Source: Microbulbifer celer (GTDB lineage: Bacteria > Pseudomonadota > Gammaproteobacteria > Pseudomonadales > Cellvibrionaceae). From it: a stretch of 64,000 nt of DNA. This document shows positions 14,112 through 42,103 of the stretch, one piece after another; the stretch's first letter is position 1, and each line of letters starts with the position of its first letter. The notes under the pieces are model-generated. The model saw only the letters and a program-made list of their open reading frames with translations, was not told the origin of the DNA and made no database searches. Position numbers and translations under genes: made by a program. The stretch lies in NCBI RefSeq assembly GCF_020991125.1, contig NZ_CP087715.1, positions 3,134,501-3,198,500 on the forward strand. Direction: 5' to 3'.

Positions 14112-14145
14112 GTCGTCCCACTTTGCGATTTTCACCAAGATGGTG
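14112..14145 (-). promoter_or_regulatory. Shared palindromic operator-like site B (oxidoreductase promoter)
   Basis: GTCG, then CCCACTTTG (14117-14125), ten bases, then CAAGATGGTG (14136-14145). It lies in the 224-base gap between the halogenase operon and the oxidoreductase gene, upstream of the latter. Confidence 0.6.
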
Positions 14146-14232
14146 CGAGATAAAAGCGCGGTTGCGGGCCCAGCAACGGAAAACCTTGAACTGCGTCTCA
14201 GTCCGCCCCTCGGTATCTGCCTCGACGATCAA

Positions 14233-16445: not shown

Positions 16446-16467
16446 TTATTGATTCCGTCAAGCGTTA

Positions 16468-17502: not shown

Positions 17503-17522
17503 GTCGTCCTCACTCTGGCAAT

Positions 17523-18254: not shown

Positions 18255-18312
18255 CGTATTTCTCTCGTAGTGGTTAATTATTGTTGTAGTAGGGTTGCAT
18301 AAATAACCGGAT

Positions 18313-18345
18313 CAAAAAAGCCGCTGACCCGAAGGGCCAGCGGCT
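18313..18345 (-). terminator. Rho-independent terminator after the TonB receptor gene
   Basis: On the minus strand the stem GCCGCTGGCCC / GGGTCAGCGGC (18320-18344) has a short TTC-containing loop and is followed by six Ts (18314-18319). It lies about 35 bases past the receptor stop codon and before sapC. Confidence 0.85.
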
Positions 18346-18380
18346 TTCCGTTGCCTTAATAAACCATCCTGTGAAATGAC

Positions 18381-22845: not shown

Positions 22846-25105
22846 CGCACTGCCTCCACAGTCCGGCCCACCCGCGTCTGCCACAGAGCATACCCAAACA
22901 GCAGCATCAGGATGACCATCGAATAGGCCGCGGAATAGGCGTACTGGTATTTCTCGAAGCCGATACGGAACGCCTTGGTGATCAGGATATCGTTGGCCCC
23001 CGCCGGCGCGCCGTCGCTGACCAGATAGATGACATTGAACATATTGAAGGTCCACACCACCGACAGGATCACCGCCGGTACCAGTACCGGTTTCAGCAGC
23101 GGCAGGGTGATGGAGCGGAACTGTCGCCAGCGCCCGGCCCCTTCCAATCGTGCGGCCTCGTAAAGCTCCTTCGGGATCGACTGCAGGCCACCAAGGATGA
23201 CCACCATCATAAACGGGATACTGAGCCACACGTTGGTAACCAGGCCGGTGACAAAGCTGGTGCCGACGGCATCGAACCAGGCGATTGGGGAAAACCCGAG
23301 GATCTGCAACCCCTGATTGATCACCCCGAATTGCGGGTGGAACATGCCCTTCCACACCAACGCGGTAATGTAATTGGGAATCGCCCACGGCAGGATCAGG
23401 ATCAGCCGGAACAGCCCGCGACCGAAAATGGGTTTATCCAGCGCCAGAGCCAGCACCAGCGCCAACCCCACCGACAGCACTACGTTGGACAGCGTCCAGC
23501 AGACGGTGATAAACAGCGTCCAGTAAAAGTTGTCGAAGTTCAGGTTGCGCGTCTCGCCACCCCACAGGTCGAAATCCCCCAGAATGGCGAGGTAGTTATC
23601 GAAGCCCACCCAACGCGACCACAGCGGGGTGTATTCATTGAACACGGTGGTATCGGTAAACGACAGCAGCAGACCGTAGAGCAGCGGGAAGAACACCAGC
23701 AGGGTCATCCCCAGCACAGCCGGCAGCAGGTACAGGTAGGCAGTCCGGTTGGCCCGCCAGCCTGCCGTAAATGGAATACGGTGACGGTGCCACAGCGCCA
23801 GGGCAATGGCCACCAGCAGGATCGGCACAATCCACAACCCCAGGCGCCAGGCCACCGGCAAGCTGGCCTGTCCGATATTGTTGCGCACCCGGGCCTGCTC
23901 AAGCCGCGCCAGCTCCCCGCTCACCTGTTGCTGGAGGCGGTGCAGCTCCGGCGCAGGTAGCGCCGCGCCGGTGACAATTTTCTGCAAAGTGGTTTCCAGC
24001 GGCTGCCATACCAGGGTCATGGCCAGCTGGTTGGGAATTGGCAGCGCATTGTCCAGCTGTGCGCGAAACGCCATGGCGATGGCATCGCTGGCGACCTGCG
24101 GGTGATCGAAGGCAGCCAGGTTGGCGGGCAGCTGACCACCGCGGATGGCCATGATCTCCGCAGACTGGCGGCTGGTGAGAAAATCCATCAGGTCGAGTAC
24201 TGACCGGCGGTGTTCGGTCCACGGCGAAACGAACAGTCCCTCCACCGCCACCCAGGGAGCCAGCGGCTGACCACTCTCACTATTCAATGGCAGTGGCTCT
24301 ACCGCAAATGGCAGTTGCGGGTCGATCTCTCCCAGCATCCAGGGCCCGCTGATCACCATCGCCGCACGGCCCTGATTGAACAGGTTGGTGACCAGAGTAC
24401 TGCTGGGCTCCTCCGGCAGAATTTTCTCACCCTTTGCATCTCCCCGCGCCCAGTGCAACAGCAACTCCATGGAGCGGATATTGGCGGGACTATCCAGATC
24501 CAGCTCGCCGCCCCGACCGAAGGGGCCGGCGCCGAAGCTGTTCATCAGCGCGCCGTGAAAAAACGGCTCGGTGTAGCTGTAGGCGAGGCCGAAACGCCCG
24601 GCATTGCGATCGGTGTGGCGGCGGGCCACGGCCTCCAGCTCGTCGGTGCTGCGGGGGGCGCGGGGAACCAGATCGGTATTCCGGTACAGAGCCGGACTTT
24701 TGAAGTTGAATGGCAGGCCATAAAGGCGCCCCCCGTGCACCATGGATTGGCGCAAATTGTCGGGAAAGCGGGATAGCAAGCGCTCACTGACAATGTCATC
24801 AATGGGTGCCACGGTGCGCCCGGCACTGGCCCAGGCGCCGAGGCGGTCATGGGCGAAGATAAACAGATCCGGCCCCCGCCCCCGGGGTAAGGCCGCGGAG
24901 AGCTTGTCGGCGTAGCCACCAAACGGCACCGCCAGCGCCTTGACCTGAAGCTGCGGATGGCGGCGATTGTAGTCAGCGATCAACTGTTCCAGTGCGGCGC
25001 GTTCTGCACCGCGGTAGCTGTGCCACAGCTCGAGGGGTTCCGCAGCAGCGGCTCGGTTGCACAGCAGGAAAACCGCTCCAAGCACCGCGATGGAAAACAG
25101 ACGCT

Positions 25106-25112
<7 letters not shown>
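22842..25112 (-). CDS. Fused sugar-binding protein and MalF-like ABC permease
   Basis: A 756-residue fusion. Residues 1-23 are a signal sequence, and about 24-410 form an extracellular solute-binding domain (ELWHSYRGAERAALEQLI, YGLPFNFKSPALYRN, WMLGEI). A hydrophobic segment at about 430-450 then precedes a MalF-type permease (about 470-756) with the EAA loop YEAARLEGAGRWRQFRSI. Normally these are separate proteins; here the binding protein is tethered to the channel at one-to-one stoichiometry. It starts at GTG 25112, overlapping the ATPase stop by seven bases, and overlaps malG at its end, so all three are co-translated. The likely cargo is glucose or short gluco-oligosaccharide released by the locus enzymes. 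No separate binding-protein gene is present nearby, which supports a real fusion. Confidence 0.9.
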
Positions 25113-26215
<1,103 letters not shown>

Positions 26216-26500: not shown

Positions 26501-28081
26501 ATGCGCCTGGCCCCTTTTGCGGCATTCAGCCTCACACTGGTCTCCCTGTCTGTATTGCACGGATGCTCCGTACAGCCGGAAGCCATGGACGACGCCACTA
26601 TCGATCAACGCGCCAGCGGTGACTGGCAAACCGCCTTTGGCAATCAGCAACCGGTGACAGGCCCCATCGACCTCAATGAAGCCATCGCCCGCGCTATCGC
26701 CTACAACATGGACAACCGCCTGAAACTGATGGAAGCGGTGGTTGCCGACCGCAACCTGCGTCTGTCGCGCTGGGATATGCTGCCGGAGATTGCCGCCAGC
26801 GCCGGCTATAACCACCGCAACAAGCAACATTTCTCCAGCAGCGAAGATGTAAATGGCAATGAATCCCTCGCACAATCCACCTCCCTGGACAAAACCTACA
26901 GCACCTCCGGGCTGGAACTGTCCTGGAATGTGCTCGACTTTGGCATCAATTACCTGTCTGCCAAACAGGCTGCCGATGGGGTGATGATTGCCATTGAGCG
27001 CCAGCGCAAGCTGATGCACAACGTCATCACCGACGTGGAATATGCCTTCTGGATGGCCGCCGCCGCCCAGCGCGCCCAGAACCAGTTACCTGCTCTGATC
27101 GAACAGACCCGAAGCGCACTGGAAAAATCCCGCCAGAGCGCCGAGCGGGGTCTGCGCCAGACCGAGGCCAGCCTCTCATACCGTCGCGACCTGTTGGATC
27201 TGATGCAGCAATTACTGGCGCTGGAAGGCGATATGCACAACGCCAAGATGGAACTCGCCTCACTGATGGGCTTGCCGCCGGGCAGCCAGTTCACCGTCCG
27301 CGCCAGCCAGAGCGATGTACTGCGCAGCCCGTTCAATGAGATGAGCGTACTGGAACTGGAGCAGTACAGCCTGCGCAACCGCCCGGAACTGCTTGAAGAG
27401 GATTACCGCCAGCGCATCGCCGCCACGGAAATCCGCAAGGCCTGCCTGCAGCTCCTCCCGGGCCTGGAACTGCGCACCGGTTATTTCTACGACGACAACA
27501 GCTACCTGCTCTACAACGACTGGGCCGAAAGCAGCCTGCGGCTGACCTGGGACCTGCTCGGCACGGTAGTCGCCGGCCGCGATCTGGTGGGTTATGCCGA
27601 AGATACCGAGCGCCTGGGCGATGTGCGCCGTGCGGCATTGACCGTCGCTGTGCTCACCCAGGTGGACCTGGCCTACAGCCACCTGCAGCGGGCACAACTG
27701 AACCACGGTTATGCGGCGGAAATGGCGGAGCTCGACCGGGCAATGGCGAGCCAGTCCCGCGCCCGCTGGCAATCCAGCCAGGGCACCGAGCTGGAAAGTA
27801 TCCACGCTGCCACCCAGGCGCTGGTATCCAGTGTGCAGCGGGATGTGAGTTATGCCGACTGGCGCAGCGCCAATGGCCGCCTCAGCAATGCAGTGGGTTT
27901 CCAGCCCGAGTTCTATATCGACTATCGACAACCGCTGGAAGTGATTGAGCAACAGGTGGCCGACCTGCGCACCCAGAGCGCCAGCATGGAGCTGCTGCCC
28001 ACCGGCGGCTACAACCCACAGGGCGTTGAAAAACGCGAGGCGGAAATCCGTGAGGACGGCCAGGCCGCCGCGCACTGGTGA
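26501..28081 (+). CDS. TolC-family outer-membrane channel lipoprotein
   Basis: A 526-residue outer-membrane factor. The N-terminal lipobox LHGC (Cys22) marks a lipoprotein, and the rest is the duplicated helical hairpin/beta-strand pattern of TolC-type channels, for example LNEAIARAIAYNMDNRLKL and LELEQYSLRNRPELLEEDYRQRI. It would form the exit duct of a trans-envelope complex. It begins five co-directional genes that end with the giant surface protein, so its cargo is probably that protein. ATG 26501 has an AAAGAG site. An unusual point is that no ABC exporter or RND pump accompanies it. Family assignment is firm; the cargo is inferred from gene order. Confidence 0.88.
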   Translation: MRLAPFAAFSLTLVSLSVLHGCSVQPEAMDDATIDQRASGDWQTAFGNQQPVTGPIDLNEAIARAIAYNMDNRLKLMEAVVADRNLRLSRWDMLPEIAASAGYNHRNKQHFSSSEDVNGNESLAQSTSLDKTYSTSGLELSWNVLDFGINYLSAKQAADGVMIAIERQRKLMHNVITDVEYAFWMAAAAQRAQNQLPALIEQTRSALEKSRQSAERGLRQTEASLSYRRDLLDLMQQLLALEGDMHNAKMELASLMGLPPGSQFTVRASQSDVLRSPFNEMSVLELEQYSLRNRPELLEEDYRQRIAATEIRKACLQLLPGLELRTGYFYDDNSYLLYNDWAESSLRLTWDLLGTVVAGRDLVGYAEDTERLGDVRRAALTVAVLTQVDLAYSHLQRAQLNHGYAAEMAELDRAMASQSRARWQSSQGTELESIHAATQALVSSVQRDVSYADWRSANGRLSNAVGFQPEFYIDYRQPLEVIEQQVADLRTQSASMELLPTGGYNPQGVEKREAEIREDGQAAAHW

Positions 28082-28119
28082 CCGCTGTGGCCGATAAGGC
28101 CGAGGAACGCTCCGAAGCA

Positions 28120-28137
28120 GCCCGGGTGGCCCCGGGC
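28120..28137 (+). terminator. GC-rich hairpin between the TolC-like and adaptor genes
   Basis: GCCCGGG, a TGGC loop and CCCGGGC form a perfect seven-pair stem about 40 bases after the TolC-like stop codon, with an A-rich and then short T-run after it. It may attenuate transcription and lower expression of the following genes relative to the channel. Confidence 0.4.
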
Positions 28138-28177
28138 GCAATAAAACTTTGTGGTAGATGGTTTCGTGGTACCCCAT

Positions 28178-29020
28178 ATGCAAGTCCGAATGCACCCCCA
28201 ATTGCGCCCTCGCCTGCTGGTAACCCTGATACTGGGACTGCTCCCGCTGTGTAGCCAGGTGCTGGCAGAAACCTCGCAAAGCGCGCCCGCCAAACTCAAT
28301 GCGCTCAGCCGCGTACAGCTCTCCAGTGAACTGGCCGCCCGACTTACACAGGTCCGCGTAAGAGCCGGCGACCGTTTTGAAAAAGGCGAACTGCTCGCGC
28401 GCTTTGATTGCACCGAACTCGAGGCAGAACTCGAAGGCGCCGCATCCCAACAGGCGCTGGCCCGCCGACAACTGGAAGCCAATATTTCCCTGCGTCAGCT
28501 CGGTGGCAATATCAGTGAACTGGAAATGGTGCAGAGCGAAGCACAGCTGGCAGAGGCCACCGCCAAGGCCAAGGTGCTCACCCATCGCAATGGCTATTGT
28601 GCCGTGCGCGCGCCGTTTGATGGCTTTGTGGTGAGCCGCAGCGTCGAGCCACACCAACGGGTGGATGTAGGCGCGCCGCTGCTCGAATTGGTGGACAACC
28701 GCGGCCTGGAAGTGGAAGCGATTATTCCCTCGGGCTGGCTGGAGAAAATATCCATTGGCGATCAATTCTCCGTAGCCATCAACGAAACCGGTCATCAGTA
28801 CACGGCCACGTTGAAACGCATTGTTCCGGTAGTGGATCCGGTGACCCGCACGGTACGGGTGATCGGGCATATCGAAAAAGAAACCGCAAGTATCTCCGCA
28901 CCGGATCTGCTGATCTCCGGCATGAGCGGGGAAGCGCGTTTTACCATGCGCGATAAAGCCAAAGACCTTCTCGCCGACGGCACCGCCAAACCGGCCCCAA
29001 AAACCCAGGGGGCCAATTGA
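28178..29020 (+). CDS. HlyD/RND-type periplasmic adaptor protein
   Basis: A 280-residue exported membrane-fusion protein. After a signal sequence ending VLAE there is a split lipoyl-like domain (VRVRAGDRFEKGELLARFDC and GYCAVRAPFDGFVVSR) around a short coiled-coil hairpin, followed by the beta-barrel and membrane-proximal parts (IVPVVDPVTRTVRVIGHI, ISGMSGEARFTM). It would bridge an inner-membrane component to the TolC-like channel. I start it at ATG 28178; GTG 28151 and ATG 28190 are also in frame and no site has a strong ribosome-binding sequence. It is the second gene of the putative export locus, ending one base before the next gene. Confidence 0.82.
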   Translation: MQVRMHPQLRPRLLVTLILGLLPLCSQVLAETSQSAPAKLNALSRVQLSSELAARLTQVRVRAGDRFEKGELLARFDCTELEAELEGAASQQALARRQLEANISLRQLGGNISELEMVQSEAQLAEATAKAKVLTHRNGYCAVRAPFDGFVVSRSVEPHQRVDVGAPLLELVDNRGLEVEAIIPSGWLEKISIGDQFSVAINETGHQYTATLKRIVPVVDPVTRTVRVIGHIEKETASISAPDLLISGMSGEARFTMRDKAKDLLADGTAKPAPKTQGAN

Positions 29021-29021
29021 T

Positions 29022-30335
29022 ATGGATGCGAGGCTCCTGGAAAAACTCAACAGCTTTCTCGCGATCGAGAAAAGTTTGCGTACTGCAACCAGTGCGCAAC
29101 AGATCGCGCGCATAACCTGTAGTGACAGTCAGCAACTGTTGAAGTTTGACAGCTGCCTGTTTTTTTCTGGCGCCAACTTAAAACTCATTGCAGCATCCAA
29201 TGTCACCACCATTGATGCGACCAGTAGCGAAGCGGTCCGCTGGCGTCGGCAGGTGCAAAAACACTTTGCAGCCGCCAAAAAACAGCGGCTGCTGCAAGTC
29301 CAGTTCTCCACTGCAGCACCAAAAGACGGCGATCAAAAGGCACAGGAAGCACACCACTTAATATTGATACCACTGGGACGGAATGGGGAAGAGGGATGCC
29401 TTGCTTTATTGAGGGCCAAAGCTTTTTCCCAACAGGAGCAGGAAATAGTGCGCGAGCTGGCGGACTCGGTTCAGCAGGCATTACTGGCACTGCGCGGCGC
29501 GCGCCGATTTTCCCTGCGTCGTCTGTGCGCACGTCGACCTCTGATTCTGGCCGCAGTGTTTGCCGGAATCTGCCTGATCCCGGTACGCCAGAGCGTACTC
29601 GCGCCAGCCACACTGGCGGCGATCGAGCCACGTATTGTTTCCGCACGCACCGATGGCGTGATCCGCGAGATCAATATCCCTCCCAATGCGAAGGTACAAA
29701 ACGGGCAACTGCTTTTCACCCTGGAAGACGCTGAAGTCACCGCAGAGATTGATCGCGTACAGCAGGAGATTGCGCTGTATCGGGAGCGCCTGCGCATGAC
29801 CCGTCAGTACAACTTCCAGCAGGCCGCGGCTGGCCACAAACTGGCACAAGCAGAAACCGATCTTTCCATCCGCAATCTTGACCTGAGCTATCAGCAAACC
29901 TTATTGGACAAAACCCGGGTGAAAGCACCGGCAACGGGCGTGGCCATCTATACGGACCCTTCCGATTGGATCGGCCGCCGTATCTACGCCGGCGAAAAAG
30001 TGATGGAGATCGTTCAGCCCCACGCACGACAGATCCAGATTGATCTGCCCACAGCAGACGCCATTCCGTTACCAAAAAATGCCCAAACGGTATTTTACGC
30101 CGAGTCAGATCCACTCTCGCCGATCAGGGGGCAATTGCGCTACCACAGCCTGCTTACTGCCGAGGGCGAGAACCTCCCCGCCAGCTATCGCCTGCTGGCC
30201 AGTATTCAGCAAGACCGGGCACAGATCCGGATCAATACTCGCGGTCACGCCCGCATCTACGGTACGCGCGTTCCCCTTGTCTATTACCTGTTGCGCCGAC
30301 CACTGGCCAGCGCCCGCCGCTGGGTTGGTATCTAG
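29022..30335 (+). CDS. Inner-membrane HlyD-type adaptor with N-terminal GAF-like cytosolic domain
   Basis: A 437-residue protein with an unusual layout. Residues 1-165 look like a GAF-type sensor domain (FDSCLFFSGANLKLIAAS, HHLILIPLGRNGEEGCLALL, then a helix SQQEQEIVRELADSVQQAL). One membrane span follows at about 173-189, then a HlyD-like periplasmic part with a lipoyl half (PRIVSARTDGVIREINIP), a coiled coil at about 245-295 and the second lipoyl half (TRVKAPATGVAIYTDP). It could therefore sense a cytosolic state and pass it to the envelope complex. It is separated by one base from the previous adaptor gene. The adaptor part is clear; the GAF assignment is by pattern and less certain. Confidence 0.75.
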   Translation: MDARLLEKLNSFLAIEKSLRTATSAQQIARITCSDSQQLLKFDSCLFFSGANLKLIAASNVTTIDATSSEAVRWRRQVQKHFAAAKKQRLLQVQFSTAAPKDGDQKAQEAHHLILIPLGRNGEEGCLALLRAKAFSQQEQEIVRELADSVQQALLALRGARRFSLRRLCARRPLILAAVFAGICLIPVRQSVLAPATLAAIEPRIVSARTDGVIREINIPPNAKVQNGQLLFTLEDAEVTAEIDRVQQEIALYRERLRMTRQYNFQQAAAGHKLAQAETDLSIRNLDLSYQQTLLDKTRVKAPATGVAIYTDPSDWIGRRIYAGEKVMEIVQPHARQIQIDLPTADAIPLPKNAQTVFYAESDPLSPIRGQLRYHSLLTAEGENLPASYRLLASIQQDRAQIRINTRGHARIYGTRVPLVYYLLRRPLASARRWVGI

Positions 30336-30382
30336 GCGTGCATGCAAGGCAAGCAAAGAGGTAGAGGTAAAAAGAGGTAACC

Positions 30383-32641
30383 GTGCAACCCCAGTGTTCC
30401 GCCACTACCACAGAGCCACCGGACACTCGCACTTCTGATATCGAGGAGCGAGCGCTACCGCCATTGCGCAGTGACCTGCAGTTCCACCCGGTGCGCGAAA
30501 GCGAGGGCAATACCACCTGGATGCTGTACGATCCCCTGCGTGGTCAGTATCTCGAGCTCGGAGAGCTGGAATTACTGGTACTGCACTACTGGCACTTCAG
30601 AAGCCCGCAAGCCATTGCCAATCGTATCGCGCGCGATCACGGCTGTGCCATCAGCGCCGAAGAAGTGGAGGCCGTGGCCCGCTTCGTCAAGGACAATGAA
30701 CTACTGCAGAGCAGTAGTAAGGAAATTGAACGGAAACTCGCGAGCATCAATCTACAACAGCAACGTCTGCAAACACTGCAGAAAACCGTATTCTGGCGCA
30801 GGCCACTTTTTATTCCCAACCTGAGCAGCTACCTGTTACGTCCCCTGGCCCGCTGCACCGCTTATCCGGCCTTTTACGCTTTTCTGGGGCTGGTTGCAAT
30901 TGCCTCTGCACTCTCAATCGGGCAGCACTGGCCAGAGTTTCTCGCCTACTTCAGTGCCAGTTGGAACGCCGCAGGTGCGGTGACATTTTTCCTTTGCTAC
31001 CTGCTACTGAGTCTGTTCCACGAACTGGGCCACGCCAGTGTCGCGCGCCTGTACGGCGTGCGCGCCAACAGCATCGGCGTTGGATTGATCGCACTGTTCC
31101 CGATCATGTTCAGTGAAATCACCGATGCCTGGCGCTTGCCACGACGCGCACGTCTGCATATTTCCGCCGGTGGCGTGTTGTTTGAGGCAACACTCGGAGT
31201 GGCCGCGGCGGCAACCTGGTGCCTGCTGGACGACGGCTCTATGCGATCCCTGGCATTTTACCTTTTCACCACCTCTCTGATCACCACGCTGCTGATCAAT
31301 GCCAACCCATTGATGAAGTTCGACGGCTATTACCTGCTGAGCGATTTCACAGGAGAAAAAAACCTGCAACAGACCGCTACTTCGACCTTACGCCAGTGGG
31401 CCTGGGGGGTGCTGGTGCGTCAGCCAACGCCGCCGACCAATCGTCGACAGAAACTATTGATCCTGTTTGGCATTGCCGGCCTGCTCTATCGTATATCGGT
31501 CTTCATGCTGATCAGCTATGCCGCCTACCAGCTGTTGTTCAAGGCCGCCGGAGTGTTGATCCTTCTGATCTGTGTGGGGCTGCTGCTAGTAGTTCCCAGT
31601 GTTCGGGAAACCCTTGCCTTTATCAATTTCCTCAAGGAGCAGGATAAGCGGCCAATCATGCGTAAAAATTCGAATCAGAGACCATCACCAGGCAGCGAAA
31701 ATGAGACGGTAGAAAGTAACGGAATGTCTCCACTGCAGAAAGTGACAAACTACCTTCGCCTGCTCAACCCGAAGTTTCTCGGTGCACTGACAGTGCTCAC
31801 AGCGCTGCTGCTGATCCCTCTGCCGTGGCCGGTGCAACTCCCCGCCAGCACCTTCTTTGCAGATAGCCAGAAAGTGATGGCGCCGGCAGGGGCTGTACTG
31901 GAATCCCTGGACCTGAAACCGGACAGTGAAATCCGAACTGGCGCCGTGATCGCACGCCTGCAAGACCCGGAGCTGGACTATCGCATTGCCCGTACCGAAG
32001 AGGAGCTGCAACTTCTGCAACGGCGCCAGGATAGCGACGGCTTTGCAGAAAGCCTGGACGCCCTGGATGGTGTGTACCTGCAGGATCTGCTCAGTAAACA
32101 GCAGCTATTGCGAACCTTGCATACAGAAAAACAACAGCTGGAAATCATCGCCAAGGTATCCGGTCATGTGGACTGGATTCTTCCCGGCTTGCATAGCGGC
32201 CAGTACCTGGATCTCAATCAACCGTTTATTACTATCGTCGATCGCACCACATTGCGCGGGCGTGCCTACGGCCGCTCTCAGCAAATCACACGCTTGACGC
32301 CACGCGAAAATAACCCGATGTACGGCCGCCTGTTTCTGGACGGAGGCTGGCAACCGGTTGCTGTCACCGTCAGTAGCGTAGACCAGATCGCCTCACGCAA
32401 GATTCAGGACCCCGCACTGGCATCCGATTACGGTGGCCCACTGCAGACGCTGCCGGACGACCCTGAGCGCAGTGCAGAAGCGCTGCACCTGGTGAATTTC
32501 TCCATCGCTAACGACGGAGAAAAAATGCTCTCTACCGCACAACGCACCGGACACCTGGTGCTGTTTGGTGAACCAGTGAGTTTACTGAAACTACTGACGG
32601 ACCGGATTGCGGGTGTCGTGATCCGGGAAAGCGGCGTTTGA
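30383..32641 (+). CDS. M50 site-2-protease-type membrane protein fused to an HlyD-like adaptor
   Basis: A 752-residue protein. About residues 30-115 resemble a PqqD-like winged-helix domain (TTWMLYDPLRGQYLELGELE). A multi-span membrane region carries the zinc-protease motif HELGH (213-217) and the distal NPLMKFDGYYLL with metal ligand Asp314. After further spans, residues about 480-750 form a periplasmic HlyD-like adaptor (MAPAGAVLESLDLKPDSEIRTG split in two halves around a coil). All catalytic residues of a site-2-type protease are intact. The probable role is processing or handing over of the exported protein encoded next. GTG 30383 has an AGAGG site. Such M50-adaptor fusions occur beside large repeat proteins, but I know of no experimental description. 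Confidence 0.85.
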   Translation: MQPQCSATTTEPPDTRTSDIEERALPPLRSDLQFHPVRESEGNTTWMLYDPLRGQYLELGELELLVLHYWHFRSPQAIANRIARDHGCAISAEEVEAVARFVKDNELLQSSSKEIERKLASINLQQQRLQTLQKTVFWRRPLFIPNLSSYLLRPLARCTAYPAFYAFLGLVAIASALSIGQHWPEFLAYFSASWNAAGAVTFFLCYLLLSLFHELGHASVARLYGVRANSIGVGLIALFPIMFSEITDAWRLPRRARLHISAGGVLFEATLGVAAAATWCLLDDGSMRSLAFYLFTTSLITTLLINANPLMKFDGYYLLSDFTGEKNLQQTATSTLRQWAWGVLVRQPTPPTNRRQKLLILFGIAGLLYRISVFMLISYAAYQLLFKAAGVLILLICVGLLLVVPSVRETLAFINFLKEQDKRPIMRKNSNQRPSPGSENETVESNGMSPLQKVTNYLRLLNPKFLGALTVLTALLLIPLPWPVQLPASTFFADSQKVMAPAGAVLESLDLKPDSEIRTGAVIARLQDPELDYRIARTEEELQLLQRRQDSDGFAESLDALDGVYLQDLLSKQQLLRTLHTEKQQLEIIAKVSGHVDWILPGLHSGQYLDLNQPFITIVDRTTLRGRAYGRSQQITRLTPRENNPMYGRLFLDGGWQPVAVTVSSVDQIASRKIQDPALASDYGGPLQTLPDDPERSAEALHLVNFSIANDGEKMLSTAQRTGHLVLFGEPVSLLKLLTDRIAGVVIRESGV

Positions 32642-32713
32642 CCGTCGCGCACAGTTAATTTTTCCGAGCGGCCAGGAATGCCGCCGAGAAAGCCACAAGG
32701 AACGAGGTACCCC

Positions 32714-35700
32714 ATGGAACTCAACGAGTTTTCCAGATCATCCCTGGCTCAGGCCATCAACCTGCACGGCCGCCAACTCACCAGCCTGCGTCGCTCACTG
32801 GAAAAGCGGGTATTGCTGGATGCCTCGGTGGCGGCAGATGTGAGCCAGCACAACGGGGATTCCGGGCCGGGTTCCGCGGGATTCAATACTGACGACGGAG
32901 ATACTGCGGTAACGATAGAAACTGCAGACAAGAAAAAGCAGAACGAGAACAGCGAACCCTCGGCCATCAACAGCGATCAGGATTCCGATCCCCCCCGTCA
33001 GGAACTGGTGGTGATCGATTTACAACTGGATGACGCCCAGTCACTGGTGGATGATCTGTTGCAGCAGGCAGATTCGGTCACCCACCATGAAGACAGCACA
33101 CAGATCACCATCGGCGAGCGCAGCATTACCCTACTGACACTGGACGGGGATGACAGCCTGCAAACAGTCACCAGCCTGCTGCAGAAAATCAGCACAGCGT
33201 CCGGCACTGCATTCGATGCGGTTCACATTATTTCTCACGGTGGCGCTGGCGGTATTGATGTCGGTGGTGAAGAACTATCCCTGACTTCCCTCACCGCGTC
33301 CGATGCAGACAGCCACCGCGCTCAGCTGCAAAGCTGGTCAGCCGGACTGAGCGAAAATGCCGATATCCTGCTGTACGGCTGCAGTACGGGTTATAGCCAG
33401 ACCGGCGAAAACTTTATCGATCAGTTGGCGCAACTGACCAATGCCGATGTGGCCGCCTCCGACGATGCGACCGGCAGCGCCCTGCGCGGCGGCGACTGGG
33501 AGCTGGAGCAACAGAAAGGCGAAGTGGAAACCGATATCGTGTTTTCCAAGCTGCTGCAGGGCAGCTGGGAAGCACTGATGGTGGCGAACCCTACCGCAAC
33601 GGTGGATGCCCCATCGGAAGACTTCATCAACGAAACCACCGAGGTGAATTTCGTATTTGAAAACAACAGTTCTGATACCGGCTACGGGCCGTTTATGGAT
33701 GTGGTTGTGGGTCCGGGGATCGAAGTCCAAAGCGTGGATGGGCTGCTGGGCGCCAGCTTTGAAACCTATACCGTAGAGAACGGACAGTGGGTGGACAGCA
33801 ACGGCAACCCGCTAGAGTACCATCCCTACGATCTCAACCAGACCGGTGCCATTCCGCTGCCACCAGTGGGCCCGGAAGGCTCCACCTGGTACGCCGTCGA
33901 ACTGCCATTCGGTTCCTTCACTGAGGACCAGCCGGCCTACGAATTCACCGTCTCGATACTGCTCGACGAAGCCGCCGGCGCCGAGGTGGGCGTACCCATT
34001 CCGGTCTATGCGCGCCCAGGGTTTATGTACGGCAACGATCCGCTGAACAACCCGGATATTGATCCACCCATCACTGGTAGTGAGATAGAAACCAGCATCA
34101 CCCCCACGGTAATGAAGGTGGACAAGGAAGCGCGGGACGGCGACGGCGACAACGATTCCATCGGCGATGACGGCGAAACTGTCACCGGCCCCAGTGAACC
34201 GGTGACCTGGGCCGTGACCGTGGATATCGCCAATATGTCCACCATCGAAAACCTGGTGGTAACCGAGCAGGTGCCCAACAACTTCTACTATATGCCGGGC
34301 ACTGTGGTGGTCAGCGACTCCGCCGGTAATGTGTTACAGGAAGGCGTTGACTACACGGTTACCGAACCACCGGAAGGCGCCAACAACGACGCGGAACTGG
34401 TGGTCGAATTCCTCAACCCGGTAGAAGGCACACTCGCCGACAACGATATCGTTATTACCTACACCGGCTATGTGCCGGACGTAGATGCCAATGGCGATCC
34501 TATCGTGATCAACGATGGTGCCAACGACGCGGTAACAAACACCGCCTCCATCACCGGCACATATCAGGAACAGGAAATCAGCGACGACGACACCGATACC
34601 ATCACCGCCACCGCCACCGCGGTGCAGAAAGACGTGGTCCTGGTCAACGATACCGGCGCGGAAGGCTTCACCCCCGGCGACGGGCTGGAATATACCCTGA
34701 CCGTCGAAGTCTCCGACTATATGCAGCTGGAGGACCTGGTGCTGTCGGACATACTCGGCGACGGCCTGCAGATAGACGAAGGCTCGATCACCATCGAGCT
34801 GTTCTACAACGGCACCACCTACGGCCCCTCCAGTACCGACAACGCCACCGTCAGCGAGGACGGTGGTAGCGGCGAGACCACCATCAACATCGATATATCC
34901 CAGGAGCTGATCGACCTGGGCATCAGCGACGGCAGCCTCAACGGAGACCTGTTCGCCGACAGCATCGTGGACGGCACCACGACCATTGTGGTCACCTACG
35001 AGGCCACCATCCGCGAGCAATACCTCGCCACCGGTCAAGCAGTGAACTCACTGGATGTCATCGGCAACCAGGCCACCATCGATGCCAATGCCGCCTCCGC
35101 TAACGGCGAAGCGGTGGACAACAGCAGCTCAGAACAGATCACTATCGAGGGGGCCGATTCGGACAAAAGCGTCTATGCCGTCAACGGCAGTACCGACCCC
35201 AATGACCTTGACGAGATCCGCGTCGGCGATGCCGTAACCTTTGCCCTGACGCTTGAGCTGGCGACACTCGATACCCTGGGAATGTCGATTACGGACTACC
35301 TGCCGCAGCCGGTGTTCGAGGCGATAGCGCCCATTTTTGTCGATACCGGCAACGGCGCCACCACCCCCGGCGTCAACCAGTGGGGCTTCGGCCCGGGCAC
35401 CGACTTCGGCAACTGGCCCGACGGTTACCTGGACGGCGACAATGTCACCACCAGCGCGGACACCGCCAACAACGCCATTACCTGGACCTTCGATCCTGTC
35501 GAACAGCTCAATTCCGCAGGCGGCACCGTGCAGTTGTTGTTTACCGTGGAGGTGCAGGATGTGCCGTTTACCGACGGCCTTTTCCTGACCAATATGGCCT
35601 CGGTCAGTATCGACAGCACCAATTCCACCACCGTATTGGACCCCGACGGTACTCTGGTGCAGGTACTGTCGCCGTCGATCGACGTCACCAAGGGCGTGAT

Positions 35701-38700
35701 TTCCACCGATGATCCGAATGGCCAACTCGATCCGACGCCCCCCGGACCGGTGGCCTTTGATCCCGCCGGCAGTCCCGACAATGGCAGTGCGCCCTGGAGC
35801 GGCGACATCACCAGCCAGAACCTCGACACCACACCGATCGACTCCGACCTCAGCAACGTGGACGCCGGCGACACGGTTCGCTTTGCCATCGTGGTGGAAA
35901 ACTCCGGCAGCTCCGATGCCTTCAATATTGCCATCAGCGACACGCTACCCGACGGCTTCGAAATTCCCAGCGGTGGCCTCAACCTGCAGGTGTTCACCGG
36001 CAACGGCACACCGGTGAGTTACAGCGGCGACCTGTTCAGCGGCGGCATCACCCTGGACGACCCATCCGCCGACGAGGGCGCCCTCAACGAGGGCCGCGAT
36101 CCCGATACCGGTCCCACCACCGATGGCAGCAACGTCATTGTCATCACCTACGACCTGGTGGCCACCGACGATGTGCAGCCCAATCAGCAAATAGAAAATA
36201 CCGCGCAGCTGGAAGCCTACGGCGCCCTCGACGGCGGCAACGACTACACAGAAGGCAATTCCAATATCAACTGGCAGGACGATGCGCTGGTCTCGATCCG
36301 CGAAAATACCGTGGAGAAAACCCTGGTCGGCACCAGTATCAACTCCGATACCAATGCCAATAACGAGGCGGTGATCGGCGAGGTAATCACCTACTCGGTA
36401 ACGCTGACCATCGCCGAGGGCGAAACCCCGAGCGCCAGCCTGGTGGACACCCTGGATACCGGGCTGCAATTTATCGGGGTTACCAGTGTCGATTTTTCCG
36501 GTGACATCGACTCCACGGTGGACCTGAACACCCTGGACGGTACGGTCAGTGGCCAGAAGGTGACTTTCGATCTCGGCGACCTGACCAACAGCAACCGCGA
36601 CAACACCACCGACGAGACCATTACCATCACCTACCAGGTGCTGGTGCAGAATGTCGCCGATAACCAGAGCGGCGACAAACTCAACAATCGCGCACAGTTT
36701 TTCTGGGACGATACCGCCGACGGCGTGGACAACCCCACTGGCCACGGCAAGGCATCCGCAAGCCATGTCACCGTGATCGAACCGGATCTGCAGGTGCAGA
36801 AATCGCTGACCGAGAGCCTCGGCCGCATCGACGCGAACGACCTGGTGGAATACACCATCGTCGTCTCGCATACCGGCTTCTCCGATACCGACGCCTTCGA
36901 TGCCACCTTCAGCGATACGTTGCCGCCGGAGCTGACCAATGTGGCACTGGAAAGCGCCATACTGACGGTCGACGGAATGGACACCGACCTTACCGGTATC
37001 TTCCAGGTCACCGGCAACACCGTGGAAACCATTCCCGGCGCGACCTTCGACCTGCCACAGGGCGCGACGCTGACCATCGTGGTCGATGCACAGGTGATCA
37101 GCACCGTGGTCGCCGGTACCGAAGTTTCCAATACCGCCACCGTCGACTGGCAGAGCATCGACGGCGATGACCCCAACGAGCGCACCGGCGCCGACGGTCC
37201 CGGCGGTCTCAACGACTACGAAACCAGCGGCACCACCAATTTCACGGTGGATCCGGTGGAGGCCGGCAAAGTCGTGGTCAGCAGTTCCATCGACGACGAT
37301 TACAACGGCAACGAAGAGGCAGTGATCGGTGAGCTGGTGACCTATTTCGCCTCCTTCCTGGTGCCCGAGGGCAGTGCGCCCATGGCGGAGATCCTCGACA
37401 CCCTGCCCGAAGGAGTGGAGTTCGTCAGCCTCGACGAAATCTATATCGGCGAAGATATCGATCCCAGCAGTGTGGTCTTCACTCCGCCGGCAGCGGGCGC
37501 CACCGGCGAGATCAGTTTCGGCACCGCCGACCTGATCAATATCGGCGGCAATAACGGCCTCAACGAAGCGGATCTGGTGGGGCTTGTCTACACCGTGCGC
37601 GTCCTGAATGTGGACAGCAACCAGTCTGGTGTGGAACTGACCAACGAGGCGGAATTCCGTTGGGATCTGAACGGCAACGGCACCAATACCGACCCCGACG
37701 ACGGTCAGGTGACCGAAAGCACCACCATCACTGTGATCGAACCACAGTTGCAGATCGACAAATCCGTCAACGTCACCGAAGCCGACAACGGCGACCCGGT
37801 CGAATACACCATTACCGTCACCAATCCCGACGACGGCAGCAGCACCACCGCTTACGACATCAGCTTCAACGATCCGCTGCCCGACGGGTTGGTGAATGCC
37901 ACATTTATCGCAATCCTGCAGACCGACGCGGAAACGACGGACATCTCGGGATACTTTGAAATCGTCGGCAACGAACTGGTGCTGAATCCGCAGGCGGAAC
38001 TGGACCTGGTACCGGGCAGTACCGTCACCATTACTGTCAGCGGCTCGCTCACCAATGCGCTCGCCGGCAGCACCGTCGACAACACCGCCAGCGTCGACTG
38101 GACCAGTCTCGATGGTGAGGACGACAACGAGCGCACCGGCGCCGACGGTGAGGGCGGCGCCCTCAACGACTACGCAAACAGCGACAACGCGTTGCTGTCG
38201 GTGCCGGACCCGCTGATCGAAAAGAACCTGGTTTCCACCAGCCAGAACGACAGTCTCAACGATGACACCGAAGCCACCATTGGCGAAATCGTCACCTTCG
38301 AAACGGTGCTGACCCTGCCCGAGGCCACACTGATCGGCGAGATCCTCGACAATTATGGCCCCGGCTTCGAGTTCGTGGACCTGGTCAGCGTTACCGCCAA
38401 CAACCCGGACGCGATTAATATCGACTTCGATCAGATCACAGTCATTAACGACCCGGGTAGCAATACCGTCGCTTTCGATTTCGGTACCCTGGTGAATACC
38501 GATACCGACAACAGCACCACCGAAACCGTCACCTTCACCTACCGGCTGCGTGTTACCAATGTCGTCGACAATCAACAAGGCACCACCCTGACCAACGAGG
38601 CCACCCTCAACTACGACACCGACGCCGACACGCCCGGGTTCGAAGGCCAGATCAGCGACGATGCTACCGTCGATCTGGTGGAACCCGAAGTAGTCGTCGA

Positions 38701-41700
38701 CAAAGAACTGCTCAGCCCCACACCGCTGACACTCGGCGGAACCGCCCAATATCAGATCACCGTGCAACTGGACCCGAGCAGCGGTGCCGATGCCTACAAC
38801 GTGCATATTGCGGACGCATTGCCTCCCTACCTGTCCGGCGTGAACGACGTACAGATAGACGTTACCGGCGGCTCGCCGGAGGTGATCGACAGCTCCACCG
38901 ACAACCTGTTGCTGTTGGATATCAGCGTGATCGACAGCACTACCGTAATCACCATTACCATCGACGCTCAGGTGACCTCTGACCCCGCCGCCGTCGGCCA
39001 GAGTACGACCAACAACACCACCGTCGACTGGACCAGCATCGACGGTGACGACCCCGCCGAGCGCACCGGTGCCGACGGTGAAGGCGGTGACCTGGACGAC
39101 TACGAAACCAGCGACGAAGTCACCGCCGAAATCGAAGCCTTCGATCTGTTTATCAACAAGGATGACGGCGGTATCGATGAGGCCAACCCGGCCGTGCCCG
39201 GCCAAGAAGTCACCTACACCTTCGACTACGGCAACACCGGCACGGTCGATGCCACCAACGTGGTGATTACCGAAACCCTGCCGGACTTCGTCACCTTCGA
39301 CCCCGCCGACAACCCCGGCTGGACTCTCAATGGCGACACCCTGACATTTGACGTCGGCACCGTTGCAGCCGGCGCCACTGGCAGTACCACGCTCGTTGTC
39401 ACCATCGTCGATCCGGTGCCGGCCGGCGTAGAACAGACGACCAATACCGTCTCTATCGACACAGACGATGGCGCTGACCCAACGCCCGAAAACAACACCG
39501 ACACCGATGTCACTCCCATCATCGCCACGCCGGATTATGTCATCGACAAGATCGAGGAATTCAACGATCCAGCCAATCCCGGCGACACCATCAGCTGGAC
39601 CATCGAAGTATCCAACGAGGGCAACCAGGACGGTACCGGTGTGGTGGTCACCGACACCCTGCCAGACACCAGTTTGCTCCACGACTTTGTCGCCAGCGAT
39701 GGCGGCGTGATCGATCTGGCCGCCGGCACCGTCACCTGGGAAATCGGCGACCTGGCCGCCGGTGACTCCATCACCCTGACACTGTCGGCAGTCGTCAACG
39801 AATCCGTGCCCGAGACCATCCCCACCCAGACCAACTCGGTCACCGTGGAAGATGACGGCGAAAACGGCGAAGACCCGACGCCGGAAAACAATACCGACGA
39901 AGAGGACTTCGATATCGAATATATCGACCTCGCCATCGTCAAGGATGACGGCGGTATCACCGCCGAACCCGGCGATGCCGTGGTCTATACCCTCAACTAC
40001 GCCAACAACGGCACCGCCGATGCCACCGGTGTGGTGATCACCGAAACCCTGCCGGAATATGCCAGCTTCGATGCGGCCGCATCCACCGCCGGCTGGGTGG
40101 ACAACGGCGATGGCACCTTCAGCTTCGACGTTGGCGACCTCGCCGCCGGCGAAACCGGCACTGTCGAGTTCGCCGTCACCATCGTCGATCCACTGCCCGC
40201 GGGTGTGGAGGAGACCAATAATTTCACCAGTATCGAAGACGATGGTGAACACGGCCCGGAACAGGATCCCGACGATAACGACAACGATGACAACACGCCC
40301 ATCGATGGTCGTCCGGATTACGTCATCACCAAGGAAGAAAACTTCGACGATCCCGCCCACCCCGGCGATCCCATCGAGTGGACCATCACCGTCTCCAACG
40401 AGGGCAACCAGGACGGCACCGGGGTAGTCGTTACCGACACCCTGCCGGACACCAGCCTGTTCCACGACTTTGTCGCCAGCGACGGTGGTGTGATTGATCT
40501 GGAAGCCGGCACCGTCACCTGGGAAATTGGCGATATGGCCGTGGGCGATTCGTTCACCTTCACTATTTCCGCGGTGATCAACGATTCCGTGCCCGAAACC
40601 ATCCCCACCCAGACCAACTCGGTGACCGTCGACGACGATGGAAACAACGGGGAAGACCCGACACCGGACAACAACAGCGATGGTAAAGACTTCGATATCA
40701 CCTACGTGGATTACGTAGTCGACAAAATCGAGAACTTCGATGATCCCACTCACCCCGGTGATCCCATCAGCTGGACCATTGAAGTCAGCAATGAGGGCAC
40801 TCAGGACGGCACCGGGGTGGTGGTGACGGATACTTTGCCTGACACTGCGCTGTTTACGGATTTCACAGCCAGCAATGGCGGGGTGATCGACCTGGAAGCA
40901 GGCACAGTCACCTGGAATATCGGCGATCTCGCCGCCGGTGAGAGTGCTTCGCTCACCCTGTCTGCCGTAGTGGCGGAATCCGTACCCGCGGACATAGCGC
41001 CCCAGATCAACACGGTGGTGGTGGACGACGACGGGGAAAATGGCAAGGACCGTGTGCCGGAGAATAACCAGGACAGTGAAGAATTCTTCGTCGAATTCGT
41101 GGATCTGTATATCGACAAGGACGACAAGGGTGTGGAACCGCGCCCCACCGAATCCGTTGTCTACACCCTGGAATACGGCAACCGCGGCAACGCCACCTCT
41201 ACCGGTGTCGTGATCACCGAAACCCTGCCCCCCAACACCAGCTTCGATGCCGCCAACTCCACGCCTGGATGGGTGCAGAACGGTGATACATTCACCTTCG
41301 ATGTGGGATCACTTGCGCCGGGTGAACAAGGCAGCATTACCTTTGCGGTTATCGTGGACTATCCGTTGGATGTCGAAATCCAGCAGACCAGTAATACCGC
41401 CACCATTACCGATGATGACAATAACGGCCCGGACCAGAACCCCGAAGACAATATCGATACTGACGAAACCAAGATCAACAACGATGTGCTTGTGGACAAC
41501 ATCACCCTGTCGCAACTCCATCAGGATTACATTTACCCGCCCCGGGAATGGGAGCGACAGGCACCGGAACTGCACGGCCGGCTGATTTCCAAAGAGACCG
41601 AGGACATCGCAGCCAACCTGCAGGGTGGCCGCAATGGCGGCAATTACGATCCCGCCTTCGGCCCGGTGGATGGCGCTTACTACCCCAACGATTGGTCGCG

Positions 41701-42103
41701 GGTATTCGGAAACGACTTGAGTATCGATACCAGCGACCGGGGCGATGGCGCAAAATCCAGCCCGCTGGAAATGGATGACGACACCGGGCGCTACCGCGCC
41801 AACTCCCTGTTTGGCGAGTTTGAGCGCCCGGCGGCCAGCCCGGAACTACCGGCCGGGGCACCCGGATTCGCACCGGGCGTAGAGCCTCTTCCAGCGCCAT
41901 TCCAGTCCACACCCAGTGGTAATGAGCCCCTGAACCTGGAAGTGGAACGCAGCCAGCTGCAACTGCAGCTGGATGACATCACCCGGGAATTGCATGAATC
42001 CCGGGTATCTCCTCTGCTATTGGCCCTGGCGGAACTCAGCCAGAAAGAAGTGGAAGGTCAGGAAGAGGTCCATGACCAGAAGGTAGCGTCAAACGCAAAA
42101 TGA
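32714..42103 (+). CDS. Giant surface protein: LEPR-XLL-like N-terminus, DUF4347 domain, DUF11 repeats
   Basis: A 3129-residue acidic protein. There is no hydrophobic signal peptide; instead the N-terminus has a basic segment and the motif LEKRVLLDA (residues 29-37), matching the LEPR-XLL family of large exported proteins. DUF4347 follows (about 97-290) with His175 in HIISHGG and Cys223 in LLYGCSTG, a spacing and context like clan CD cysteine peptidases. From about 460 to 2925 there are many DUF11-type beta-sandwich repeats, rich in Asp, Thr and Gly, ending in pairs of near-identical units. The last 200 residues are unrelated and lack RTX or PEP-CTERM signals. It is probably an adhesin or matrix protein exported by the four genes before it. 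ATG 32714 has GAGG seven bases upstream; the 12 extra upstream codons are not needed. Confidence 0.85.
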   Translation: MELNEFSRSSLAQAINLHGRQLTSLRRSLEKRVLLDASVAADVSQHNGDSGPGSAGFNTDDGDTAVTIETADKKKQNENSEPSAINSDQDSDPPRQELVVIDLQLDDAQSLVDDLLQQADSVTHHEDSTQITIGERSITLLTLDGDDSLQTVTSLLQKISTASGTAFDAVHIISHGGAGGIDVGGEELSLTSLTASDADSHRAQLQSWSAGLSENADILLYGCSTGYSQTGENFIDQLAQLTNADVAASDDATGSALRGGDWELEQQKGEVETDIVFSKLLQGSWEALMVANPTATVDAPSEDFINETTEVNFVFENNSSDTGYGPFMDVVVGPGIEVQSVDGLLGASFETYTVENGQWVDSNGNPLEYHPYDLNQTGAIPLPPVGPEGSTWYAVELPFGSFTEDQPAYEFTVSILLDEAAGAEVGVPIPVYARPGFMYGNDPLNNPDIDPPITGSEIETSITPTVMKVDKEARDGDGDNDSIGDDGETVTGPSEPVTWAVTVDIANMSTIENLVVTEQVPNNFYYMPGTVVVSDSAGNVLQEGVDYTVTEPPEGANNDAELVVEFLNPVEGTLADNDIVITYTGYVPDVDANGDPIVINDGANDAVTNTASITGTYQEQEISDDDTDTITATATAVQKDVVLVNDTGAEGFTPGDGLEYTLTVEVSDYMQLEDLVLSDILGDGLQIDEGSITIELFYNGTTYGPSSTDNATVSEDGGSGETTINIDISQELIDLGISDGSLNGDLFADSIVDGTTTIVVTYEATIREQYLATGQAVNSLDVIGNQATIDANAASANGEAVDNSSSEQITIEGADSDKSVYAVNGSTDPNDLDEIRVGDAVTFALTLELATLDTLGMSITDYLPQPVFEAIAPIFVDTGNGATTPGVNQWGFGPGTDFGNWPDGYLDGDNVTTSADTANNAITWTFDPVEQLNSAGGTVQLLFTVEVQDVPFTDGLFLTNMASVSIDSTNSTTVLDPDGTLVQVLSPSIDVTKGVISTDDPNGQLDPTPPGPVAFDPAGSPDNGSAPWSGDITSQNLDTTPIDSDLSNVDAGDTVRFAIVVENSGSSDAFNIAISDTLPDGFEIPSGGLNLQVFTGNGTPVSYSGDLFSGGITLDDPSADEGALNEGRDPDTGPTTDGSNVIVITYDLVATDDVQPNQQIENTAQLEAYGALDGGNDYTEGNSNINWQDDALVSIRENTVEKTLVGTSINSDTNANNEAVIGEVITYSVTLTIAEGETPSASLVDTLDTGLQFIGVTSVDFSGDIDSTVDLNTLDGTVSGQKVTFDLGDLTNSNRDNTTDETITITYQVLVQNVADNQSGDKLNNRAQFFWDDTADGVDNPTGHGKASASHVTVIEPDLQVQKSLTESLGRIDANDLVEYTIVVSHTGFSDTDAFDATFSDTLPPELTNVALESAILTVDGMDTDLTGIFQVTGNTVETIPGATFDLPQGATLTIVVDAQVISTVVAGTEVSNTATVDWQSIDGDDPNERTGADGPGGLNDYETSGTTNFTVDPVEAGKVVVSSSIDDDYNGNEEAVIGELVTYFASFLVPEGSAPMAEILDTLPEGVEFVSLDEIYIGEDIDPSSVVFTPPAAGATGEISFGTADLINIGGNNGLNEADLVGLVYTVRVLNVDSNQSGVELTNEAEFRWDLNGNGTNTDPDDGQVTESTTITVIEPQLQIDKSVNVTEADNGDPVEYTITVTNPDDGSSTTAYDISFNDPLPDGLVNATFIAILQTDAETTDISGYFEIVGNELVLNPQAELDLVPGSTVTITVSGSLTNALAGSTVDNTASVDWTSLDGEDDNERTGADGEGGALNDYANSDNALLSVPDPLIEKNLVSTSQNDSLNDDTEATIGEIVTFETVLTLPEATLIGEILDNYGPGFEFVDLVSVTANNPDAINIDFDQITVINDPGSNTVAFDFGTLVNTDTDNSTTETVTFTYRLRVTNVVDNQQGTTLTNEATLNYDTDADTPGFEGQISDDATVDLVEPEVVVDKELLSPTPLTLGGTAQYQITVQLDPSSGADAYNVHIADALPPYLSGVNDVQIDVTGGSPEVIDSSTDNLLLLDISVIDSTTVITITIDAQVTSDPAAVGQSTTNNTTVDWTSIDGDDPAERTGADGEGGDLDDYETSDEVTAEIEAFDLFINKDDGGIDEANPAVPGQEVTYTFDYGNTGTVDATNVVITETLPDFVTFDPADNPGWTLNGDTLTFDVGTVAAGATGSTTLVVTIVDPVPAGVEQTTNTVSIDTDDGADPTPENNTDTDVTPIIATPDYVIDKIEEFNDPANPGDTISWTIEVSNEGNQDGTGVVVTDTLPDTSLLHDFVASDGGVIDLAAGTVTWEIGDLAAGDSITLTLSAVVNESVPETIPTQTNSVTVEDDGENGEDPTPENNTDEEDFDIEYIDLAIVKDDGGITAEPGDAVVYTLNYANNGTADATGVVITETLPEYASFDAAASTAGWVDNGDGTFSFDVGDLAAGETGTVEFAVTIVDPLPAGVEETNNFTSIEDDGEHGPEQDPDDNDNDDNTPIDGRPDYVITKEENFDDPAHPGDPIEWTITVSNEGNQDGTGVVVTDTLPDTSLFHDFVASDGGVIDLEAGTVTWEIGDMAVGDSFTFTISAVINDSVPETIPTQTNSVTVDDDGNNGEDPTPDNNSDGKDFDITYVDYVVDKIENFDDPTHPGDPISWTIEVSNEGTQDGTGVVVTDTLPDTALFTDFTASNGGVIDLEAGTVTWNIGDLAAGESASLTLSAVVAESVPADIAPQINTVVVDDDGENGKDRVPENNQDSEEFFVEFVDLYIDKDDKGVEPRPTESVVYTLEYGNRGNATSTGVVITETLPPNTSFDAANSTPGWVQNGDTFTFDVGSLAPGEQGSITFAVIVDYPLDVEIQQTSNTATITDDDNNGPDQNPEDNIDTDETKINNDVLVDNITLSQLHQDYIYPPREWERQAPELHGRLISKETEDIAANLQGGRNGGNYDPAFGPVDGAYYPNDWSRVFGNDLSIDTSDRGDGAKSSPLEMDDDTGRYRANSLFGEFERPAASPELPAGAPGFAPGVEPLPAPFQSTPSGNEPLNLEVERSQLQLQLDDITRELHESRVSPLLLALAELSQKEVEGQEEVHDQKVASNAK
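39152..41450 (+). repeat. Alternating DUF11 repeat units in the giant protein gene
   Basis: Six units of about 125-132 codons occur in two types. Type A begins with patterns such as FDLFINKDDGG, IDLAIVKDDGG and VDLYIDKDDKG; type B begins PDYVIDKIEEF, PDYVITKEENF and VDYVVDKIENF and contains NEGNQDGTGVVVTDTLPDT or close variants. Order is A, B, A, B, B, A. Type B units are nearly identical in DNA as well, so they arose by recent duplication and may vary in number between strains. Confidence 0.75.

Follow-up and report, generated by a model that had tools for sequence, protein, structure and literature searches.

We analysed a five-gene locus (positions 26501 to 42103) in a 64,000-nucleotide stretch of the Microbulbifer celer genome (contig NZ_CP087715.1, positions 3,134,501 to 3,198,500 of the forward strand); this whole stretch is called the window below. 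On balance, we favour the reading that the locus encodes a dedicated machine that exports the giant protein encoded by its last gene and handles its leader: a RiPP recognition element (RRE; RiPP, ribosomally synthesized and post-translationally modified peptide) would bind the LEPR leader of this protein, a fused M50 protease would cut or gate it, and HlyD-type adaptors and a TolC-like channel would conduct the protein outwards. The gene order, the domains, the co-inheritance of the exporter with LEPR-type cargo and the matching of leader and exporter types are directly supported. Loci of this kind have been known since 2015, as the main text of PMC4452313 indicates. Probably new are the cargo assigned to the locus, that is, its substrate class, and the LEPR leader as a signal with two sequence flavours that match the exporter clade. 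A leader-reading domain (RRE) in the modelled M50 protein is probably new as well, as is the predicted caspase-like nature of DUF4347.

Layout of the locus and its proteins

The genes and domains were arranged as follows (values after family names are E-values).

26501-28081, plus strand: TolC/OEP-family outer-membrane channel with a lipoprotein-like N-terminus (LHGC, from the sequence); PF02321 1.7e-28, in two stretches
28178-29020, plus strand: HlyD-like periplasmic adaptor with a signal-peptide-like N-terminus (hydrophobic residues 13-31); PF13437 8.2e-19, TIGR01730 1e-32
29022-30335, plus strand: GAF-HlyD protein; PF01590 5.9e-5, PF13437 1e-9
30383-32641, plus strand: RRE-M50-HlyD fusion of 752 residues, with a predicted RRE/PqqD-like domain, an M50 site-2-protease core and a C-terminal HlyD-like part
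30425-30736, plus strand: RRE-like domain, residues 15-118 of the M50 protein (the modelled part)
32714-42103, plus strand: giant putative cargo of 3129 residues; PF14252 1.6e-38, PF01345 3.5e-108, TIGR04226 4.3e-68
32714-32860, plus strand: conserved N-terminal segment with LEKRVLLDAS, followed by a variable linker (from conservation in 16 proteins)
32990-33577, plus strand: DUF4347 domain with a predicted caspase-like fold and conserved His175 and Cys223

An earlier note on this DNA had described five co-directional genes with these domains, and we found the open reading frames (ORFs) at these places. Its gaps of 96, 1, 47 and 72 bases hold when the Met codon at 28178 is taken as the start of the HlyD gene and 32714 as that of the giant gene; the longest ORFs start at 28151 and 32678 (3141 residues), respectively. 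The start of the giant gene at 32714 is supported because a Shine-Dalgarno-like stretch (ACGAGGT) lies directly 5' of it and, in 11 of 15 genus relatives, no possible start codon of the giant frame precedes the aligned Met. That note had overlooked the RRE-like domain ahead of the M50 core, the giant protein's DUF4347 domain and the account of such a locus published in 2015. Both an OEP channel and a HlyD adaptor are encoded here, as in type I secretion, and the HlyD, GAF-HlyD and M50-HlyD genes of the 2015 locus kind are all present together. The GAF-HlyD protein has a GAF domain (residues 26-154), a single membrane segment (residues 168-186) and then its HlyD part.

The M50 protein has the HExxH motif, the distal Asp and the membrane character of an M50 site-2 protease. 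Its HELGH motif (H213, E214 and H217) and D314 are intact, as had been claimed, and an alignment of 130 M50-matching sequences showed all four residues conserved in 126, the four exceptions being outlying proteins. Hydropathy revealed six hydrophobic segments, and the PF02163 match scored 28.0 bits against a cut-off of 27.2. Named homologues with more than 50% identity were all from Microbulbifer. The predicted model of the N-terminus revealed a three-strand, three-helix winged fold like that of PqqD, and its best structural matches were RREs solved with leader peptides. The profile matches of this domain were weak (PqqD 3g2b, E 0.0018; TfuB1 6jx3, E 0.0041), and Pfam PqqD matched 8 of the 41 M50 homologues at E ≤ 1, with a best value of 1.2e-7. 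Judging from the confident model, the N-terminus is probably an RRE-like (PqqD-like) domain, which would bind a leader.

The giant protein comprises the N-terminal LEKRVLLDAS, a DUF4347 domain (132.5 bits against a gathering cut-off of 24.6) and many DUF11/isopeptide-type repeats. In agreement with the earlier description, simple hydropathy revealed no signal-peptide-like N-terminal segment. The DUF4347 model matched caspase-like folds, and a His and a Cys were conserved across DUF4347 sequences; ten sequences off the His search pattern had been dropped, which biases the His count and, to a lesser extent, the Cys count. The closest solved match to the model was the DUF4347 chain of the Hcp3-Tce1 type VI complex (9qpe), with weak matches among those listed. 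P. aeruginosa PA0256 is named as a putative type VI secretion system toxin with DUF4347 in a passage of PMC8262886. The domain is predicted to be caspase-like, and it may possess peptidase activity.

Co-occurrence of LEPR-type proteins and the putative exporter

The co-occurrence of LEPR-type proteins and M50-HlyD fusions across genomes, which had been named as a test of the proposal, was found in both a class sample and a genus sample. Among 321 gammaproteobacterial genomes, M50-HlyD was present in 49, DUF4347 over the cut-off in 39 and both in 30 (Fisher 1.5e-21). These counts come from a search with an M50-region profile (at most five candidates scored per genome), which replaced a first search that gave generic HlyD matches in 296 of the 321 genomes (at most three candidates scored in each). 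The replacement search matched 53 genomes at 1e-15, and G004, G025, G088 and G233 (60-116 bits) were omitted as other proteins.

When DUF4347 genomes were classified by N-terminus, M50-HlyD was found in 28 of the 30 with LEPR-type DUF4347 and in 1 of the 8 without the motif (p 2e-5). N-termini were read for 38 of the 39 genomes, with G193 omitted (N-terminus cut); the motif count also omits G068, whose DUF4347 match lies under the cut-off, and the motifs of G206, G258 and G264, which were off the search pattern, were read by eye. Fragments of M50-HlyD in G123, G153, G185 and G216 were retained; when they were excluded, p was 4e-24 for LEPR-type cargo. All p values overstate the case because the genomes are not independent. 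Of the two genomes with LEPR and no M50 match, G245 is split into about 120 contigs, and G286, which is 85% complete, into about 620. Signal-peptide-like N-termini were seen, by eye, in six of the eight motif-less genomes (G034, G077, G128, G165, G186 and G305); G218 and G249 had neither such an N-terminus nor LEPR. DUF4347 alone was rejected as a cargo marker, as eight genomes were motif-less (seven of them without M50) and some LEPR cargos lacked DUF4347.

Of the 48 genomes in the genus sample, 16 held full-length M50 and 16 held DUF4347 over the cut-off, and these were the same genomes; G386, with a partial M50 and no DUF4347, was scored as a genome without the system, and sub-cut-off DUF4347 matches (G356 and G395) were counted as absent. 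The five genes were contiguous in the window and in all 15 fetched genus relatives. Second DUF4347 proteins in G384 and G365 (L238 and L239) lay away from the locus, had a signal-peptide-like N-terminus and lacked LEPR, and they are a natural control within one genome.

Beyond the genus, a profile from the 41 M50 homologues gave 80 named loci, the best 80 of 560 confirmed stretches, which came largely from Proteobacteria and Nitrospirota. M50-HlyD was present in all 80 by construction, GAF-HlyD in 77, HlyD in 74, OEP in 41 and DUF4347 in 46. A DUF4347 or motif protein was in view at 52 of the 80; for the other 28, 21 genomes carried DUF4347 elsewhere, and the motif was present in 19 of 20 such proteins, taken one per genome (L216 lacked it). 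The linkage of cargo and exporter was seen in groups as distant as Pseudomonas, Nitrospira and alphaproteobacteria. LExR occurred near the N-terminus of all 47 DUF4347 ORFs of these loci. The strict motif occurred 52 times in their 1.36 million ORF residues and 0 times in either the reversed or the shuffled ORF sequence.

LEPR-motif proteins of about 840-1370 residues without DUF4347 stood beside M50-HlyD at L118, L120, L121 and L122; the exporter is therefore not restricted to DUF4347 proteins. Two tandem LEPR-motif DUF4347 ORFs (13364-15664 and 16188-20546) lay behind a single M50-HlyD gene at L041, which suggests one exporter with several cargos. At L106 (in G185), a 147-residue frame at 9306-9746 is a short M50 remnant, which suggests decay of the system there.

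Exporter clades, leader flavours and SecA

A tree of 130 M50-matching proteins placed the window and the 80 loci within a clade of 99 (support 0.97). A second clade, B, contained 22 proteins (support 0.64), 16 of which had an adjoining SecA-like gene (646-728 residues where whole); four near relatives (L114, L120, L123 and L169) appeared to join it, and the resulting 26 proteins had a support of 0.92. The leader proposed for the window locus follows the pattern LE-x-R-x-(L/M/F)-(L/F)-D-(G/A), and LEKRVLLDAS showed 97% mean conservation in 16 proteins (the window and 15 relatives), as compared with 26-34% over most of the linker at residues 20-59 after the motif start. In the window's clade, the residue after LE-x-R-x-hydrophobic-hydrophobic was D throughout the 14 genomes classified, as against S in 16 of 17 clade-B or near-B genomes and A in the remaining one. 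Leader flavour (D versus S/A) agreed with exporter clade in every one of the 31 genomes classified, with an unweighted chance of 3.8e-9. This count omits G009 and G094, which have no M50 in the tree; G056 and G123, which also have none, were placed in the window's clade by neighbouring genes, and G303, with exporters of both clades, was assigned by the exporter adjoining the cargo. The S-flavour protein L205 lies in a genome that was reached via the window-clade locus L063; this genome has four DUF4347 places and may carry other exporters.

The proposal that the M50 fusion recognises or cuts the LEPR region gained indirect support in its recognition half, from the predicted RRE fold and from this matching of leader and exporter types. 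The LEPR-XLL naming held in part: LEKRVLLDA is present, but the window N-terminus scored 11.7 bits against the NF012209 cut-off of 17, so the name rests on the relatives. NF012209 was over the cut-off in 7 of 10 N-termini, comprising six of six with the S flavour (27.9-31.7 bits) and one of four with the D flavour. As in the window, the LEPR-XLL domain (NF012209, LEPR-8K) is a short N-terminal motif in very long proteins; its model fits the S flavour, and the D-flavour motif of the window falls below its cut-off. In the open-licence literature of PubMed Central (PMC), we found no function for LEPR-XLL and no paper describing it as an export signal.

No SecA match was found in the 80 loci within flanks of at most 10 kb, which were often shorter. 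Among 20 window-clade genomes, including that of the window, we detected a single SecA_DEAD match in 18, none in one and two fragments on two contigs in one (G056, G123 and G153 were assigned to the clade by neighbouring genes); G303, with exporters of both clades, had two. The window genome, which is a single contig of 4,346,001 bases, had one SecA_DEAD match over the cut-off and no secondary SecA. A hidden secondary SecA elsewhere in this genome was rejected, as the second, weak SecA_DEAD match sits in a RecG-like frame. A secondary SecA was present in 6 of 13 clade-B or near-B genomes and absent from 7, and SecA is therefore not universal there. In G081 and G310, the fetched part of the clade-B exporter locus lacked SecA, and a SecA-like frame of about 670-680 residues lay elsewhere in each genome, in G310 about 16 kb off on the same contig. 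Giant ORFs beside several SecA-linked loci (G240, G107, G053, G077, G090 and G071) extend past the fetched sequence, their N-termini lying beyond it.

Clustering of the neighbours of the 80 loci revealed no recurrent ATPase tied to them. An ABC-importer family that recurred at 19 loci was rejected as, by appearance, unrelated neighbouring genes. Other recurrent neighbours, by appearance mainly in the Pseudomonas loci of L011-L090, were, by eye, sulfotransferase-like (23 of 80), microcystin-dependent/tail-collar-like (20) and GNAT-like (19). In the window itself, the cluster looks bounded because genes of sugar-importer appearance flank it 5' on the opposite strand, and an aldehyde dehydrogenase and a TonB receptor flank it 3'. 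Maltose-type ABC importer-like genes, including a binding protein-permease fusion of 756 residues, occupy 21895-26215 on the minus strand.

Possible mechanisms and related systems

From the domains and the predicted folds, we infer the binding, cleavage and export of the giant protein, together with its surface location and the topology of the machine. The RRE-like domain would lie on the cytoplasmic side and bind the N-terminal LEPR leader as RREs bind RiPP leaders, and the fused site-2 protease would cut or gate this leader at the inner membrane. The HlyD protein, the GAF-HlyD protein and the C-terminal part of the M50 protein would supply three adaptor parts, which may form a periplasmic and outer-membrane conduit with the TolC-like lipoprotein. 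The repeats would end up on the cell surface, and the giant protein is probably surface-bound.

Self-processing is a real rival for the cleavage step, because DUF4347 is predicted to be caspase-like and has the conserved His and Cys. The locus would then export the protein and DUF4347 would remove the leader, with the M50 part only gating or anchoring; we judge this to be a possible but rather unlikely course.

The source of energy bears on a second alternative. The earlier claim that the locus has no ATP-binding cassette (ABC) or resistance-nodulation-division (RND) engine was confirmed, and no ATPase of any kind was found in it. An LssB- or HlyB-type ABC transporter encoded elsewhere might power export by type I secretion in trans, with the locus serving as an adaptor set. 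Type I ABC genes are indeed present in the genome, an HlyB-type gene about 2.1 Mb away and an LssB-type gene about 1.0 Mb away, and LssB was over the cut-off in 14 of 16 system-bearing genus genomes, as against 16 of 32 others (p 0.013). Moreover, a Vibrio LEPR-XLL protein with RTX domains, described in a portion of PMC10868602, points towards type I secretion there and weighs against a dedicated machine. On the other side, G365 and G384 carry the whole system, and none of the candidates scored in them (18 of 53 and 18 of 54, respectively) was a type I match at E ≤ 1e-100; G384 is one contig. Type I secretion signals are usually C-terminal, whereas the conserved leader is N-terminal, and the related clade often has a SecA-like ATPase instead. 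ABC help in trans is weakened by these results, and we consider it distinctly unlikely. Housekeeping Sec, a type I ABC transporter in trans or the proton motive force may be the energy source.

It is quite improbable that the M50-HlyD complex is instead a periplasmic and membrane quality-control or retention complex, with the giant protein leaving by another way. The lack of a SecA match within the flanks (at most 10 kb) of the 80 loci and of a recurrent ATPase among their neighbours would agree with such a role, but an outer-membrane channel and three adaptor parts stand in one cluster, and the cargo has no signal peptide, whereas six of the eight motif-less DUF4347 relatives have one by eye. 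Chance or shared ancestry alone can hardly explain the neighbourhood: the association tests are uncorrected for relatedness, but cargo and exporter are jointly present or absent across 321 and 48 genomes, leader type tracks exporter type and the linkage recurs in distant groups, and we conclude that the neighbourhood is not due to chance.

The claim that no system of this type had been described was not borne out, as a 2015 paper (PMC4452313) had already presented the core locus and proposed a secondary SecA as its ATPase. In the main text of that paper, Kamneva, Poudel and Ward describe HlyD-domain, GAF-HlyD and M50-HlyD genes, sometimes with OEP, beside a secondary SecA_DEAD gene in several phyla, and they suggest SecA as the substitute ATPase and the M50 protein as a possible pore. 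They call the broader role of the locus completely unknown; the sections considered here propose no particular substrate or leader recognition, and the words LEPR, DUF4347, giant, cargo, adhesin and PqqD do not appear in the main text. As there described, the 2015 locus resembles that of the window in its HlyD/GAF-HlyD/M50-HlyD set, its occasional OEP, its lack of an ABC transporter and the role in secretion that is proposed for it, and it differs in being defined by the secondary SecA. The window locus belongs to a SecA-less clade related to the 2015 locus and is not a member of it as defined. In the open-licence PMC literature, we found neither a substrate nor a SecA-less form of this locus kind, and no single paper combining PqqD, HlyD and M50.

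Likenesses were also found with leader peptidases and type I secretion. MpaP of daptide synthesis, like the window M50 protein, carries an RRE ahead of a site-2 protease and is stated, in a passage of PMC10036551, to remove daptide leaders; EpeP/YydH, the M50 leader peptidase of epipeptides, is thought to cleave and export, according to a passage of PMC10885120. The M50 part of the window protein matched the daptide protease model NF041824 (9.2e-41; 140 bits, against a required 300) and NF058609 (3.4e-10), without reaching either cut-off. Unlike these peptidases, it is fused to a HlyD adaptor, clustered with TolC and partnered by a protein of 3129 residues rather than a short peptide. Type I secretion (HlyB-HlyD-TolC and LapB-type) shares the HlyD adaptors, the TolC-like channel and a giant repeat protein as the presumed substrate; the window locus differs in lacking an ABC transporter and in the N-terminal position of its conserved element.

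More broadly, we tentatively raise the possibility, itself open to considerable doubt, that in didermal bacteria these loci form an ABC-free route by which giant proteins are secreted; the RRE-M50-adaptor protein would be receptor, peptidase and gate, and the SecA-linked and SecA-less forms would be one type with LEPR-XLL as the signal. Linking the 2015 locus, for which the sections considered here name no substrate, with LEPR-XLL gives both a testable role. If the dedicated-machine reading is true, RiPP-type leader recognition would also direct proteins of several thousand residues in Pseudomonas, Halomonas, Nitrospira, Microbulbifer and many others, and a secretion route would operate without an ABC transporter in its locus.
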